Shown here: positions 5,262 through 26,523 of the stretch, piece by piece | Layout of the letters: every line of letters starts with the position of its first letter | Numbering within the stretch: position 1 is the first letter of the stretch | NCBI GenBank assembly: GCA_003116975.1 | Contig: BGKB01000052.1 | Coordinates: 62,001-126,000, forward strand | Source of the DNA: Aurantiochytrium sp. KH105 | Lineage: Eukaryota; Sar; Bigyra; Thraustochytrida; Thraustochytriidae | Direction: 5' to 3' | Length of the DNA: 64,000 nucleotides | The notes under the pieces: model-generated | Told to the model about the DNA's origin: nothing | Database searches by the model: none | Seen by the model: only the letters and a program-made list of their open reading frames with translations | Position numbers and translations under genes: made by a program

Positions 5262-6394
5262 TTCTTCTACAGCATCACCAACAGCAGCAGCAAGAACAAC
5301 AGCAACGACAGCTTGATCAGCAAACACAGGCGGCGCAACAGCATCATCACCAACAGCAACACCACCACCAGCTCCTACTTCAACAGCAACGACACGAGCA
5401 ACAGCAACAGCAACAGCATCACCACCATCACCAGCAGCAGCAGCAGCAGCAGCAACAACAACAACAATATCCAGGGTCCCGTGCAAACAACAGCGCCGCC
5501 GTAACAGCCGCAACAATGAATGCCTTGATGCCAAATCGAGCCACAACCGGAAGTGTCAGCGAAAACGACTTTCTTCGTCGAGGGTTCTTGCCCGGCCCAA
5601 ATCAGTTTCAGGACAACGACCCGTCAAATAGCGCTGTGGTCGCAGCCGCAGCGGCAGCGTCCGCAGCAGCCGCAGCAGCCGCAGCAGCCTCGGCTCAATA
5701 TCGTCACCAACCTCACGCGTTTCCAATTCAGCATCAGAATCCTCTGCAAGGCGCGAATCAGTCTGCGCAGCCTAGCGACACGAATGAGGACGATTTGCTC
5801 TCTGCTCTCGACCGCGCATGGTTCGAGAATGCCGAGCCAGAAATCAGCGCCATGGCTGAGGCCCTCGGCCAGGAGGACGCCAACGGGCTCTTGCCTCTCA
5901 AGGACGCTGCATGGTTTCTCGAGAGCCTAGAGACTTACCACATGGGCCGGGTGACCGCTGCGGAGCGCGCCGCCATCGTCGATTCGAACCTGCGCACCAA
6001 AGTCAAACACCGTGCGGCCATTCTCTTTCACGAGGACGTAGACTTCATCATACACTACCCCAAGCGATTCATGCTCGATGCTAACGACCCTTTTTGCGAG
6101 CGCGACCCGCAGCGCTGGATCATTCACGAACTCTCCAAGATTCTCGTCAACAACTATCAGGTCTCCATTCGCGCAAAGGCAAACCGTTCCTGCATCTGGT
6201 CCGCGCTCATGAGCCGCGCGCTCTTCCATCTCGAGCGCTCTGGTTTCAATCAGGTCCGCATCTCCAACAATACGCAAGCAAACAACGAGGCCACGCTCTT
6301 CGTCGGCGACTACCACATTTCTCGCTCCAATCTCACCAAGCTTCTCAAGCGTCACGCCGGCGCCCAAGATGGTCCTGACGGGGCTGATTCTTAG
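4562..6394 (+). CDS. Gln/His/Ser-rich protein with unrecognised C-terminal domain (610 aa)
   Basis: Starts at an ATG (4562). Residues 1-135 are polar and Arg/Gln/Ala-rich. A Ser run follows at about 140-155, then long Gln and His tracts at about 220-305 encoded by mixed CAG/CAA/CAC codons, then an Ala run near 360-378. From about residue 400 to 600 the composition becomes that of a folded domain: acidic start, a segment with LLPLKDAAWFLESLE, hydrophobic helices and FHEDVDFIIHYPKRF. I do not recognise the family. The Q/H tracts suggest a nuclear regulatory or condensate-forming protein, but this is inference only. An AATAAA lies at 6437-6442, about 45 bp after the stop, as a possible polyadenylation signal. 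The downstream gene is convergent. Confidence 0.8.
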
Positions 6395-20111: not shown

Positions 20112-23100
20112 TTACTTCTTTCGCATAAAGCCGCGAACCTGGTTGACAAAGTCCACTACATTTCTCTGAAAGCGGCGACGATTGATACGATCGAAGCGAA
20201 GCTGGACGTCGTTGTTCTGCACAAGCCCCGTGAACGCCCGCGAAAGACGCTCGCGCATGGCGGGGTCCTCCTGACTTGCGATAATTCCCTCAACCATCGG
20301 GCCAAAACTCTCTTGCTCAGAAGCGATGAGCGCGAACATTGCATTTGCCGCAGGGTTGAGCAGACTAGAATCAAATGTCTGAAAGACAATAAAGTTGAAG
20401 ACCTTCTGCAGCAGCTGCAGCAGCACCGAGGGCGTCCCCGGGCCGTTCGGACGAAGGTTGGCGCCAAGCCCTGGGCCGCCCTGAGCCGCCTGCTCGACGT
20501 GAAATTCGGCAAGACAGGTCAGAGCCTCGAACGAGTTTCGCGACACGGAGACGCGATGGTCGCTCATGCCAAATTCCAGGGCTTTCAAAATAGGGTTGAA
20601 CATTTCTCTGCTCAACGTTGCAAATTCTGACGGGTAGGCGTCAACAAGGTTCCGCAGCACGTTAAAAAACTCCTCAGCAATACCGGGAAATTGGAGCAGG
20701 TCTTCCGTCACGAGCGGGAAAACCAGCTGCACGCCCTTGATAACAACCTGCACAGGCTGCGGACCCTGCGCTTGCGCCGAGTTGACAGGATTTTCGCTAA
20801 AGTCGAGCTGGTCGCGAAAGGTGATGTGGCGAATCAAACGCATAAGGCGCAATACATCACGGCACCATGCATCCTCTTCACCCGCCTTGAACTGGCCAGG
20901 ATGGGATGCCAAGTGGCGCTGGAACTCTGCAAAAACCTGGAGGATGCGGTCTGCCGCCTCGAATGCAGGAGCAAGTTGCGTCGTTGGCGTCGATTCCAGC
21001 TGCAACTCCATGTAGGCTTCGATAAGCTCAAGAACTTCGGAAATGACTCTGCGCGCGCTCCCGCTCACCGCTGCGCCAAGCCCGTCGCGTTTAATAAAAG
21101 TCAGAGCAGCCGCGCCCACCTGAGCCCATCGCGACGAGAGTGCGCCCAGCACAAAGTCGCGACACCAGCCGGCAAGGGGCCCGAACGAAGCTGCCTGAAC
21201 CGCGCCCACGTACATGTTCATCACGCGCTCCAGATCCTGTAAAAAGTGCGGATCCGAGAGCACTGATCCAACGTTTTCCTTGCCAACACGCTGCGCATCA
21301 CTTACAAGTCTGGAGGCCAGCGAGTCGAGGCGCTGCTGCACAGGTTCCACCAGCTGAGCGAAAAGTCCTTGCAAGTGCTCGCGACGAGCTGTGGGGGCTT
21401 CCTGGCCCACTTCGAGGCTCATGAGCAGCACCTGCAAGAGTGTGCCCTGACCGCGTACCGTGAGACCATCCAAGGGTTTCCAGTTCGCATCACGAACGGA
21501 ACGCACGTGCGCTTCGCACAAGGTGCCCCAGCTCGACATTTGCTGCAGCATCCTTCTGCACGCAGAGTTGTCCACAACGGCGCGCAGCAGGTTAAGTGCT
21601 TCGGGATTCACCGAAGTTTCCGTGCCCCAGTTCGACACATAGTGTGTCGCGCACTCGACCAAAAAACTAATAAGTTCTTCGGCCTGCGCGGGCTGCGCAA
21701 AGCACAAATCGATAGAAGCGGGCAGGCCGTCCTGAATCCGCGTCGACTTGCCGTAGAGACCACGCTCCGGCAAAAGATACGTCATGGACCAGCGCGTGAC
21801 GGCTGCCAAGAGCTTGCTCGACAGCAGGGGACTAATGCGCTCGTCCTCGCCGTTACTGCCGCGCACACGCTCTGCCTCGAACTGCAGCAACTGTAACAGG
21901 CCTTGTGAAAGCTTAACACACGGGTCCTCGGAGGCCGTTTGCCGTGTCATCGGCCCCGCGCCGCTCGCTTGTGCACAAAACTGCATCGAGGACGCGATGA
22001 TACAGGCCGGAATCATAGGGCTTTCGCCATCCGCCGGGTCGGCGAGCAAACCTGAAGCGAGCAGCACAACCCAAAAGAGCTGTTCCGCGACCTGGCTACA
22101 GCGCATCGAGCTTTCCTCTGACCAGGGCTGCGAAGCGCTCGCCATCAGATCCGCGGACAGGCGCTGCAGCGCGGATATGTTCGCCATCATTGATCGCACC
22201 ACATCAGCTCTACCCAGCGATGAGATGGAGAGCAAATGGTCATCAAGGGCGCTCTCGTCTTCGGCGAATTCCTCCTCAAATGTTTCAAAGGCCTCGCGCT
22301 CCATGGAAGCGCGGGCCATGACCAGGCGCTTTTCAAGGTAAAATTGGTACAGGTCCCCTGCGGCACCGCAGACAATGCGATGCGCCTCCGTTTCAAGTGC
22401 CGATGGCGGGTCCTCGCTCGAGGTCGCTCTCGCGCCGAGTGCATCCGCCCACGTTGTGAATACGCCCCACACTTCAAGGAGGCTCCCAAACGCCTCCATG
22501 AGCCAGGAGTTGTCTACGTCGTCGTCCTCATCGTGCGTGCGCGGTCCGGCGCCAGATGGCATACCGCTCTCTGCAGCGGGTCCGGCGGCGTTGCGGGCGG
22601 CGCCTTCGAGTATGCTTTTCGAAAGCTGCGAGAGCGCCCCGAGCATGCGCGGGAAGGCCCCGGGCATTTCTGCAGAGAGAATGTCATCGACCGAAAAGTT
22701 TGACAAGAGCCGGGCAAAGAGCGCGCACATGTCAAGAAATTCGGCGCCACCAGCGGCGCACAGGGCCTCTTTGGAGCCGGCTGCTGTCGAGGCAAACGTC
22801 TGCGAGAGGCCAGCGGCAGCCTCGATAGGGACGAGAGGATCCGCGATGACTCCAAAGAGAGATCCCTGCAGCATGGTGTCCAGGTATTTTGCGCGCTGGG
22901 CGGTGTCTGCAAAGACGGCTCCGTTGACGGATGCAAGCATGATGAAGAGCTGACGAATCTGGTGAGCAATATCCTCGCCAGCCCCTGCATGGCCTGCGGA
23001 CGCGCCGCGCGAGGCTGCATACAGGCGAAAGAGGGTCTCGAGCAGGCCACCCTGCAAGAGTACGTCGCGCCATCCCGCCCCAGGCTTTATTGAGGCTGTT

Positions 23101-23960
23101 CCGCGCAGGGAAACGTGCTCGCGACCCCTGGCGAGAGCGGATTCGACCTGGAACGTACGGTTCGCCTGCGAACCGGCGTCGCCGCACTGGAAATCCCACG
23201 CCAAGCAGGATTCGAGAAGACTCAAGCTACTTCGCACAACTTCCTCGGTGTCAGGGCCCGCTTGCATCGTCCGAGTCGTGGGATTGATGCCTGCGGCGAG
23301 GCCCCGCAAGAGCGCGGCGGCCATCATAAAGGCCTCTTTGAGGCCTGCGCGCTCGAAACTCTCGTGGCATTCGCGGTGAAACGCGAGAGACAAACCGAGC
23401 TCGGACGCCTTGCTCGACGAGAATTCCTCGACGAGGGCGCCGAGCAATTGCAGGGCGACGGCGTGACGCAACGAAAGCGCTTGCGGCGACGGCGGGTGTC
23501 CGGATGATGCCTCGCCACCAGCGCCGCCACTTGCAAGCAGACTTCGAATCTGCTCAAAGAGCTCGTTCTTGGCCTGAACGAGGGCAGGGTCATTCTGGTC
23601 CTCAAGCCACCCACGCTTCCACATAACCGCAAGCGCCTGGAGGAGCTGCTTGCGCACGGTGCGGTGAAAGTCGTTGCATCGCTCGACGACCATGTGCAGG
23701 ACAGTTCTGCGCAGCTGCACGCGTTCCTGGGGGCTGAGCGCGGACCACTGGTCGAGCGCCGCGTGGCGCAGCACGAGCGCCGCCTGGAACTGCACAAAGA
23801 CGTGCTGCGAGCTGCCGACGATGGCCGTGGCGCCGTCGACGGCGCCTGCGCGTTTCCTGAAGTCCAGCAGCACCGCCTCGGCCTCGTGCTTGCGCGCGTT
23901 GTCCCCGCGCGCGAGCCACTCGCAGGCCTCCTCGAACCGCCGCAGCTCGCCGCCGTCCAT
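20112..23960 (-). CDS. XPO4: Exportin-4-like nuclear transport receptor (1282 aa)
   Basis: Starts at ATG 23960. The length and all-helical, HEAT-repeat-like composition fit the exportin branch of the importin-beta superfamily. The N-terminal pattern (helix, then EAVLLDFRKR, FVQFQAALVLRHA, VRKQLLQALAVMWKRGW) follows exportin-4, which exports cargoes such as eIF5A and Smad3 with Ran-GTP. A conserved C-terminal stretch includes LVFPLVTEDLLQFPGIAEEFF. No intron is needed across 3.8 kb. It is divergent from the TEN1 candidate with only 256 bp between start codons, so the two probably share a promoter. Exportin-7 or RanBP17-like proteins are the alternative. Confidence 0.85.
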   Translation of the reverse strand: MDGGELRRFEEACEWLARGDNARKHEAEAVLLDFRKRAGAVDGATAIVGSSQHVFVQFQAALVLRHAALDQWSALSPQERVQLRRTVLHMVVERCNDFHRTVRKQLLQALAVMWKRGWLEDQNDPALVQAKNELFEQIRSLLASGGAGGEASSGHPPSPQALSLRHAVALQLLGALVEEFSSSKASELGLSLAFHRECHESFERAGLKEAFMMAAALLRGLAAGINPTTRTMQAGPDTEEVVRSSLSLLESCLAWDFQCGDAGSQANRTFQVESALARGREHVSLRGTASIKPGAGWRDVLLQGGLLETLFRLYAASRGASAGHAGAGEDIAHQIRQLFIMLASVNGAVFADTAQRAKYLDTMLQGSLFGVIADPLVPIEAAAGLSQTFASTAAGSKEALCAAGGAEFLDMCALFARLLSNFSVDDILSAEMPGAFPRMLGALSQLSKSILEGAARNAAGPAAESGMPSGAGPRTHDEDDDVDNSWLMEAFGSLLEVWGVFTTWADALGARATSSEDPPSALETEAHRIVCGAAGDLYQFYLEKRLVMARASMEREAFETFEEEFAEDESALDDHLLSISSLGRADVVRSMMANISALQRLSADLMASASQPWSEESSMRCSQVAEQLFWVVLLASGLLADPADGESPMIPACIIASSMQFCAQASGAGPMTRQTASEDPCVKLSQGLLQLLQFEAERVRGSNGEDERISPLLSSKLLAAVTRWSMTYLLPERGLYGKSTRIQDGLPASIDLCFAQPAQAEELISFLVECATHYVSNWGTETSVNPEALNLLRAVVDNSACRRMLQQMSSWGTLCEAHVRSVRDANWKPLDGLTVRGQGTLLQVLLMSLEVGQEAPTARREHLQGLFAQLVEPVQQRLDSLASRLVSDAQRVGKENVGSVLSDPHFLQDLERVMNMYVGAVQAASFGPLAGWCRDFVLGALSSRWAQVGAAALTFIKRDGLGAAVSGSARRVISEVLELIEAYMELQLESTPTTQLAPAFEAADRILQVFAEFQRHLASHPGQFKAGEEDAWCRDVLRLMRLIRHITFRDQLDFSENPVNSAQAQGPQPVQVVIKGVQLVFPLVTEDLLQFPGIAEEFFNVLRNLVDAYPSEFATLSREMFNPILKALEFGMSDHRVSVSRNSFEALTCLAEFHVEQAAQGGPGLGANLRPNGPGTPSVLLQLLQKVFNFIVFQTFDSSLLNPAANAMFALIASEQESFGPMVEGIIASQEDPAMRERLSRAFTGLVQNNDVQLRFDRINRRRFQRNVVDFVNQVRGFMRKK

Positions 23961-24216
23961 GGTGCCGCGCCGCAGGCCCTCCTCCGCGCCGCGCCGCGCC
24001 GCGCCTCCGCGCGGGTCTCCGCGGGCTCCTGCGCGCCGCCCCTCGCTGGCCGCGCTGGCGCCGCCGCCGAGATCTCGCGAGCGAGGTTTGCTCGGCCTGG
24101 TTTGGCTCGACCTGGTTTTGGTTTTGGGCGATCTGCTTTTGCCGGTCTGCGCATGCTCGAGACCTTTTTCCCGCTCCGGCGGCGGCAGACTCGCCTCCCC
24201 GGGCTCAGAGCGCGCG
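23961..24216. promoter_or_regulatory. Shared divergent promoter XPO4 / TEN1
   Basis: 256 bp separate the start codons of two divergently transcribed genes. Repeated TGGTTTGGCTCGACCTGGTTTTGGTTTTGG words lie around 24100-24130. No TATA box is obvious. Confidence 0.5.
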
Positions 24217-25012
24217 ATGGCGGTGCCGCCGGCCGCGCTCGTGCGCGTGGCGGAGGCCGCTGCCGCGGCGGACCGCGCCTCCGTGCGCGTGCTGGGCCGG
24301 TACGTTTGCGAGAGGCGGGCGAGGCGGTTGGTTGGCCGGATGGATGGATGGACGGATGGCTGGACGACTCGCGCCAGCGTTGGCCTTCGCGAGCTGACGT
24401 GAACCCAACGACGACGACGACCTTGCGCGCGTGCGAATGCAAACTTGCATGCAAATGTGCGTCTGAATGGGGACCTTGTCCACCGCAGGATTGTATCGTA
24501 TGCACCAGAGAACGATCTTGCCGTCTTGGAGGATCCATGTCCAGGAGCCCAAGATGACCGCGTTCAGGTCGATGTGGAGCTCGTGACACCTCACGAAGCG
24601 CTACAGAAGGGATCGCTTGTTTCGGTGATTGGCGAGATCAACGTCAAGGTGAGTTTGAAGCGGTACAAATTGGGCATATTACAGAAGCAAACATCTGACA
24701 TCTTTTGCTGTCGCATTTGCGTGTTGCGTTCGAAAGGGTCCTGGTGCTCGTGCACATGAGTCGCTGATCAAAGCGCGCGCGCTTGTGCCCATGGAGGGTC
24801 TCGACGTCCGTCTCTATGCGTCTGCGCTAGAAATTCGTCGCAAGTTTCTCAAGAGCCAAAACCTAGACAGCTCCTTCGTTCTCAAGCGAGAACGCACGGA
24901 AGAAGAGGCGGGACGCGCCCGCGACAAGCGTAGGCTTACCGAGGCCGCAAGCTCGCGTGCTGCCCACGAAGACGATGCAGCGGACGCTGACGCTGTCGTC
25001 ATTTTAGACTGA
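24217..25012 (+). CDS. TEN1: TEN1-like CST complex subunit, three exons (172 aa)
   Basis: Exons are 24217-24299, 24489-24648 and 24737-25012. Intron 1 (189 nt) runs from GTACGT to CGCAG and intron 2 (88 nt) from GTGAGT to AAAG; phases 2 and 0 keep the frame. The joined product reads VRVLGR then IVSYAPENDLAVLED, later LQKGSLVSVIGEI and, after the second junction, ARALVPMEGLDVRLYASAL. This follows TEN1 along its OB fold: a GR-beta strand, a second strand, VGSLYIVLGEL-like and the closing ARVLxxxEGMxLxLxxxA helix. TEN1 joins STN1 and CTC1 in telomere capping and lagging-strand fill-in. A charged tail of about 45 residues is extra relative to animal TEN1. Each exon alone is too short to be noticed, so the gene is easily missed. 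Confidence 0.72.
24300..24488 (+). other. Intron 1 of the TEN1-like gene
   Basis: Donor GTACGT, acceptor CCGCAG. It contains a GGAT microsatellite (about 24340-24360) and in-frame stops, so it cannot be read through. Confidence 0.65.
24649..24736 (+). other. Intron 2 of the TEN1-like gene
   Basis: Donor GTGAGT, acceptor CGAAAG, 88 nt, AT-richer than the flanking exons. Removing it joins two halves of the OB-fold domain in frame. Confidence 0.7.
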
Positions 25013-25165: not shown

Positions 25166-25450
25166 TTACTTGTTTCGTGGCGGGGCTACCTGCAGTGATC
25201 CATCCTTGAGGTATTGATCGATCTTCATCTGGCGATACTCTTCCCATTGCTCGGTCGAGGTGTACTGCGACACGCACTCATTCATGGCCTTGTTCAAATG
25301 CCGGCACTTGAAAATCACCATGAGGTTGTGCTCCCTGGCACACTCGACAAAGGCCTCGGTCTCATCCTTGCAGCGCTCGCGGGCCTCCTTGAGGAAAATC
25401 GTTCGCAGTCTCTGTGTGCCATTCATCATACGGTGAATGCAAGCGAGCAT
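25166..25450 (-). CDS. CMC1: CMC1-like twin CX9C mitochondrial protein (94 aa)
   Basis: Two C-x9-C motifs are visible: CKDETEAFVEC and CRHLNKAMNEC. They are spaced to form the helix-turn-helix of the CHCH fold, with a KEARERC lead-in and a WEEYRQMKIDQYLK tail as in Cmc1. Cmc1 family proteins are imported through the Mia40 pathway into the intermembrane space and help assemble cytochrome c oxidase (Cox1 stabilisation). The start used is ATG 25450. The frame is open a little further upstream to an in-frame stop, and an ATG-led segment at 25778-25704 ending in a GTGCGT donor could be a first exon. It is convergent with the TEN1-like gene. Confidence 0.85.
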   Translation of the reverse strand: MLACIHRMMNGTQRLRTIFLKEARERCKDETEAFVECAREHNLMVIFKCRHLNKAMNECVSQYTSTEQWEEYRQMKIDQYLKDGSLQVAPPRNK

Positions 25451-26523
25451 GGCATTTTCGTCATCGTCATCGGCGGTGTCTTCGTCAGTCGTTCGTCCTC
25501 ATCATTCGCCCGTCCACCCAGCTCTCTTTGTCCTCGCTTCCTCCCTTTGGGCGCGCCGTCCCTCGCGGCGGCCGCGAGCTGCTGCAGCTGCCGCAGCAGC
25601 TGCAAATCAATTCTCCGGACGCGACATGCGACACGACCTCGGGCTCCGTCTCCGCCTGGCACGCTGCTATCGTTCATGATTCTGGCGATTGCGGCCCACG
25701 CACCTCGTCTGCGAACTTGGTCCAGCGCCGCTTCCCCTCGGGCGCCGGCGCTGGCGCTGCTGCTTGCTCGGGCTCCATTCTTGGCGTAGCGTGCTTTTGC
25801 GTTTTGGTTGCCAGTCTGATCAAGAGAGACAGAGAGAGAGAGAGAGAGGTCCACATGGTCGAGGTAAACAAAGGTCCAGGCCACGATCATGGTAGTGGTA
25901 GTCATCGACCCAAAGCTTGGGCTCCCATGATCTTGAAGAGGCAACTTGAGCAAGTATAGCTTTGCGTTGATGACGGACGTCAACGCGGGGAGATTAGATT
26001 CACCAAGCAAGTTGCTACTTTTTGATGAGGTGGAAAAAGCCTTCATTTCGCAAGGAAGCAAGCAAGCAAGCAAGCAAAGCCAAGCAAGCAAAGTCAAACA
26101 AACAAAGCCAAGCAAGCAAAGTCAAATAAACAAAGCCAAGCAAGCAAAGCCAAGCAAGCCTAGCCAAGCAAGCAAAGCCAAGCAAGCAAAGCCAAGCAAG
26201 CAAAGCCAAGCAAACAAAGCCAAGCAAACAAAGTCAAGCAAACAAAGTCAAGCAAACGAAGCCAAGCAAACAAAGCCGAGCAAACAAAGCCGAGCAAGGC
26301 CAAGCAAACAAAGCCAAGCAAACAAAGCCAAGCAAACGAAGCCAAGCAAACAAAGCCGAGCAAGGCCAAGCGAAGCCAAGCAGTGAACAAGAAGACTTGG
26401 TGGACTTACAAGCTGCCTTTGATTTCTTTTTGGCTTCCACTGATTGAACACGTGCAGGGAAAAAGAAACGAAAGAGAATGTGATCACGCAGGGTAAGGTA
26501 AGGTAAGGTAAAGGTAAGATACA
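25451..26523. other. Region between CMC1 and CorA: possible 5' exon, (GA)n, minisatellite
   Basis: This contains a possible CMC1 5' exon on the minus strand near 25778, a (GA)n run at about 25827-25849, the minisatellite at 26053-26392 and a GGTAA repeat at about 26491-26517. No separate gene is supported. Confidence 0.45.
26053..26392. repeat. 14-bp minisatellite (AAGCCAAGCAARCA)n
   Basis: About 24 degenerate copies of a 14-bp unit built from AAGCCAAGCAAGCA and AAGTCAAGCAAACA variants. All reading frames across it are open because the unit lacks stops on most frames, giving artificial SKQSQANKAKQ-like or LLGFVCL-like peptides; these are not genes. Confidence 0.92.

Follow-up and report, generated by a model that had tools for sequence, protein, structure and literature searches.

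The window, a stretch of 64,000 nucleotides, very probably (about 94%) holds a functional three-exon gene for TEN1, the smallest part of the CST chromosome-end protection complex. Joining positions 24217-24299, 24489-24648 and 24737-25012 gives an open protein of 172 residues followed by a stop codon. The exons measure 83, 160 and 276 nt (2, 1 and 0 modulo 3) and the join keeps the frame. The preliminary description had proposed two GT-AG introns with fitting phases and a 172-residue product in a gene adjoining exportin-4; the in-frame join bears out this observation, and the neighbour is indeed recognised as exportin-4 by its match to PDB 5dlq. The features of the locus are as follows.

20112..23960, minus strand: exportin-4, single open frame, divergent neighbour (PDB 5dlq, E=2.9e-53)
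23961..24216, no strand assigned: 256 bp separating the divergently oriented start codons of exportin-4 and TEN1
24217..24299, plus strand: TEN1 exon 1, residues 1-27 and two bases of codon 28
24300..24488, plus strand: intron 1, GT-AG, phase 2, 189 nt, starts GTACGTTTG, ends CACCGCAG
24489..24648, plus strand: TEN1 exon 2, last base of codon 28 to residue 81
24649..24736, plus strand: intron 2, GT-AG, phase 0, 88 nt, starts GTGAGTTTG, ends TCGAAAG
24737..25012, plus strand: TEN1 exon 3, residues 82-172 and the stop, presumably including the expected C-terminal STN1-binding helix
24857..25009, plus strand: TEN1 tail beyond the domain, residues 122-172, ending DADAVVILD
25166-25498, strand opposite to TEN1: Cmc1-like frame, downstream of TEN1

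Judged from its sequence, the protein is a TEN1 orthologue within the known family and is ordinary apart from its tail. Pfam, the TEN1 chains of the PDB and the way in which two genomic copies of the gene differ all support the TEN1 assignment of the preliminary description. The profile search of the joined protein that it had suggested gave a match to Ten1_2 (PF15490) at E=2.7e-19 and 69.4 bits, against a curated cut-off of 27 bits. This match covers the whole domain (profile positions 4-116 of 117) and stops at residue 121 of the protein. When the parts are scored separately, exons 1 and 2 together (36.1 bits) and exon 3 alone (28.2 bits) each lie above the Ten1_2 cut-off and exon 2 alone reaches 16.7 bits, while neither exon 1 by itself nor the reversed protein has a Ten1_2 match at E<=1. 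The Ten1 profile PF12658, which we take to be the fungal-type family, is matched near its cut-off of 25 bits only: the window copy scores 24.0 bits, slightly below it, over residues 5-83, a match that is weaker than that to Ten1_2 and does not reach the closing helix. The second copy scores 27.5 bits, above this cut-off, and matches Ten1_2 at E=2.1e-19. In a search of the PDB the four distinct TEN1 sequences listed lead with E values of 6e-4 to 1.2e-3, and the next matches follow at E>=1.4. The TEN1 chains 4joi_D and 7u5c_G are presumably human. The alignment with the PDB TEN1 chain spans its residues 17-116, with 31 identities among 100 aligned positions, and includes the arginine of codon 28, the codon split by intron 1, which is shared with human R31. 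The protein thus has the whole domain length in common with Ten1_2 and with the PDB TEN1 chains. However, chain 7u5c_G has 123 residues against 172 here, and a charged tail of 51 residues follows the domain here.

The residues named in the available part of PMC3691326 match the letters of the PDB chain, whose residue numbering is shared with that paper. In that text, the human residues facing STN1 are R27, M100, L104, L105, A108, I109, Y115, R119 and Y9. Three of these nine are identical in the protein described here (R27 as R24, L104 as L107, A108 as A111) and three are replaced conservatively (M100 by L103, I109 by L112, Y115 by F118), so that both sets are common to the two proteins; L105 is changed to Y108, and Y9 and R119 lie beyond the ends of the alignment.

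When all six frames of the 76-Mb genome were scanned with Ten1_2, two places passed E<=0.001: the window and a homologous copy on another contig (C62). At both, the match comes from exon 3 only and reaches about 27 bits. Over 10 kb, the regions around the two copies align collinearly in two blocks with ~95% identity, and at the very start of the two contigs 89 of 90 bases agree with an offset of one, as expected of two haplotypes or of a recent large duplication. The start codon, the stop codon, the reading frame and all four splice sites are kept between the copies. Across the exons there are 12 substitutions in 519 positions and no indel; they fall 2, 2 and 8 on the three codon positions (dN 0.0105, dS 0.0624), and under a uniform share of one third at least eight of 12 would fall on third positions with a chance of about 0.02 (computed by hand). 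Exon 1 differs at 1 of 83 positions, exon 2 carries five substitutions and exon 3 six, the latter two without an indel. Intron 1 shows 11 substitutions and 18 gap columns in 195 columns, intron 2 two substitutions in 88, the stretch 3' of the stop three substitutions, and the region upstream of the ATG 43 substitutions and 14 gap columns in 124 columns. In total, the exons have diverged at least as much as intron 2 and as the sequence that follows the stop. Since the overall rate fails to mark the exons, the coding signal lies in codon position and indels, and is drawn from 12 changes only; in these respects the change between the copies looks coding-like.

The same comparison bears on whether the locus could be a decayed or unexpressed copy of TEN1. 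The assembly does contain two copies, and constraint was judged from 12 substitutions only. However, both copies are open, their splice sites are intact and their substitutions are biased to third positions, and the Ten1_2 scan of the genome showed no further copy at E<=0.001, so that we regard decay as very improbable. It is somewhat easier to imagine that the gene is TEN1 and that its true mRNA departs in detail from our model, through another start codon or splice site. Among 1,666 GT-AG combinations enumerated within chosen ranges around each junction, 168 are open, the proposed join among them, and five of these were scored against Ten1_2. At 69.4 bits, the proposed join outscores the four alternatives, which were picked by hand and not at random and reached 55.7, 54.7, 54.5 and 62.9 bits; some of the other 163 open combinations lie only a few residues away from the proposed join. 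The reading frame also continues open 5' of the ATG, which itself lies in GCGATGG, a favourable start context. Against another start stands the similarity of the two genomic copies, which climbs sharply at about the ATG. A differing mRNA is therefore unlikely in our view. The gene is short, is spread over three exons and has only 27 whole codons in the first of them, features that may let it escape gene finders.

In principle, a different small subunit with an OB fold, for instance RPA3 or RMI2, could be mistaken for TEN1. The OB fold is common to TEN1 and RPA3, and RMI2 has it as well. In the Pfam search of the window copy at E<=10, RMI2 was the sole family listed besides the TEN1 profiles, with a weak match at E=0.19; the second copy matches RMI2 at E=0.027. 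However, its 11.9 bits for the window copy stand against 69.4 bits for Ten1_2. For RPA3 (PF08661) no match was among those listed for the joined protein at E<=10, in a search where the HMMER filters drop most matches above about E 0.1. Moreover, the genome has its own RPA3, found on two contigs by a profile search (7.2e-14). RPA3 is likewise a small OB subunit, in an RPA-like trimer, but it is a separate gene here. Taken together, a mistaken identity of this kind is extremely unlikely. RPA1 and RPA2 are also encoded separately from TEN1, TERT is present with its RNA-binding and reverse-transcriptase domains, and a POT1-like protein is found on two contigs (L031 1201-2937, L032 298-1890). The latter is borderline: as frames in the genome search the two scored 31.6 and 31.0 bits, above the cut-off of 29, but as whole proteins 28.8 and 28.5 bits, slightly below it, and the sole PDB match at E<=1 was an unrelated one at E=0.19. 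The separate RPA3, the TERT and the borderline POT1-like protein argue that TEN1 here is the small subunit of a CST-type rather than an RPA-type complex. That TEN1 occurs beside TERT, POT1-like and RPA genes speaks for the existence of a CST-type complex in this lineage.

The preliminary description had concluded that the lineage has at least part of CST. This holds for TEN1, which is found alongside TERT and a POT1-like protein, but STN1 and CTC1 were not found. In the genome, no match at E<=0.001 came up for the profiles of STN1 (PF10451) and CTC1 (PF15489), and none at E<=1 for the CTC1 profile PF15491. For these three profiles the control genomes, 14 in the case of PF10451, were equally silent and so offered no usable positive control. 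STN1_2 (PF09170) gave two sub-threshold matches in the genome and one in a bacterial control. The match on contig C22 (E 0.137) lies antisense inside a long frame that by eye, without a profile, we take to be serine carboxypeptidase-like. Its counterpart on contig C12 (E 0.169) falls in a region collinear with C22 at 93-95% identity and was likewise judged an antisense artefact. The general OB domain PF01336 has 19 matches in the genome, and ten of these were scanned, one for each apparent pair (by score and frame length) plus the single one. They comprise seven class II tRNA synthetases, RPA1, RPA2 and one RADX-like protein, and none of the ten matches an STN1 profile at E<=0.01. The RADX-like protein, a 915-codon open frame (L041 448-3192; the same stretch is on L042), scores 35.3 bits against PF17659 with a cut-off of 33.4. 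TEN1 itself was seen through one exon at about the cut-off, and an STN1 split by introns could thus escape such a search. The STN1 and CTC1 partners may be strongly diverged here. As for the chromosome ends themselves, neither (TTAGGG)4 nor three TTAGGG with spacers of 0-2 was found in the assembly, and no TTAGGG-type array was seen in the 90 bases on each side of 18 contig-start and two contig-end stretches, some of which contain N.

A role of TEN1 in STN1 binding and at telomeres may be inferred here by analogy with human TEN1, as treated in the available part of PMC3691326, and from what is known of CST. The TEN1 product would adopt the fold of one OB barrel closed by a C-terminal helix, and this helix would pack against STN1 in the way that RPA3 packs on RPA2. 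Most likely, TEN1 and STN1 would then form a small OB dimer inside a CST-type complex on the telomeric 3' overhang. The complex, stabilised by TEN1, would bind single-stranded telomeric DNA, limit telomerase and recruit DNA polymerase alpha to fill in the C-strand. The accessible text of PMC9498494 already describes CST as largely conserved among eukaryotes, and to that extent the TEN1 described here leaves the general picture unchanged. Among the literature matches listed, titles and abstract openings contained nothing on TEN1 in protists of this kind. TEN1 here offers a starting point for retrieving STN1 and CTC1.

The tail differs between the two copies by two substitutions, both in third positions. 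Its acidic end, DADAVVILD or DDAADADAVVILD, is what we take to be similar to a SUMO-interacting motif (SIM). In 200,000 shuffles of the tail, four consecutive V, I or L in the last eight residues, combined with three or more acidic residues among the last fourteen, arose in 0.06%, a value that overstates the rarity because the rule was fixed after the motif had been seen. On the letters of the protein, this acidic tail, resembling a SIM, appears as the one unusual feature of TEN1 here. In fission yeast, the SIM sits in Stn1 (ILAL, 226-229) and recognises SUMOylated Tpz1, as far as the available part of PMC6686008 goes, and Tpz1 SUMOylation recruits Stn1-Ten1 according to the accessible text of PMC5440461. 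Stn1 bears the SIM in fission yeast, as described in that part of PMC6686008, whereas the candidate SIM here is on TEN1 instead. That DDAADADAVVILD is a C-terminal SIM tethering a Stn1-Ten1 module to a SUMOylated telomere protein is a conjecture that we consider unlikely.

On the 5' side of TEN1, the exportin-4 frame matches CRM1_C and IBN_N slightly below their cut-offs. The 256-bp stretch between the two genes, whose 116 bases nearest to TEN1 have diverged strongly in the second copy, is possibly a shared promoter of exportin-4 and TEN1. On the 3' side, the second copy of the Cmc1-like frame has two bases missing near its 5' part, and the frame is not continued there upstream of ...QRLRTIFLKEA; the true start may lie elsewhere or in a 5' exon. 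Further downstream, at 26050-26400 of the window, lies a degenerate AAGCAAGC-type tandem repeat that is longer here than on C62. At this AAGCAAGC-type repeat, L003 and L004 cease to align at 6295/6099, and their alignment picks up again at 6256/6340.

Elsewhere in the genome, pieces like the polyunsaturated fatty acid synthase PfaA were seen on contigs C72, C155, C290 and C61. These matches are below the family cut-off and 11 of 14 control genomes give such a match as well; on C72 and C155 a further match on the opposite strand adjoins, and this arrangement may hint at a thraustochytrid. Open frames of 5,708 and 5,831 codons were found at about 303609-314666 of contig C27 and about 295285-306354 of contig C56. 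Both show several matches to PfaA positions of about 180-480, presumably the ketosynthase part, and by these matches they look like large polyketide-synthase-like genes.
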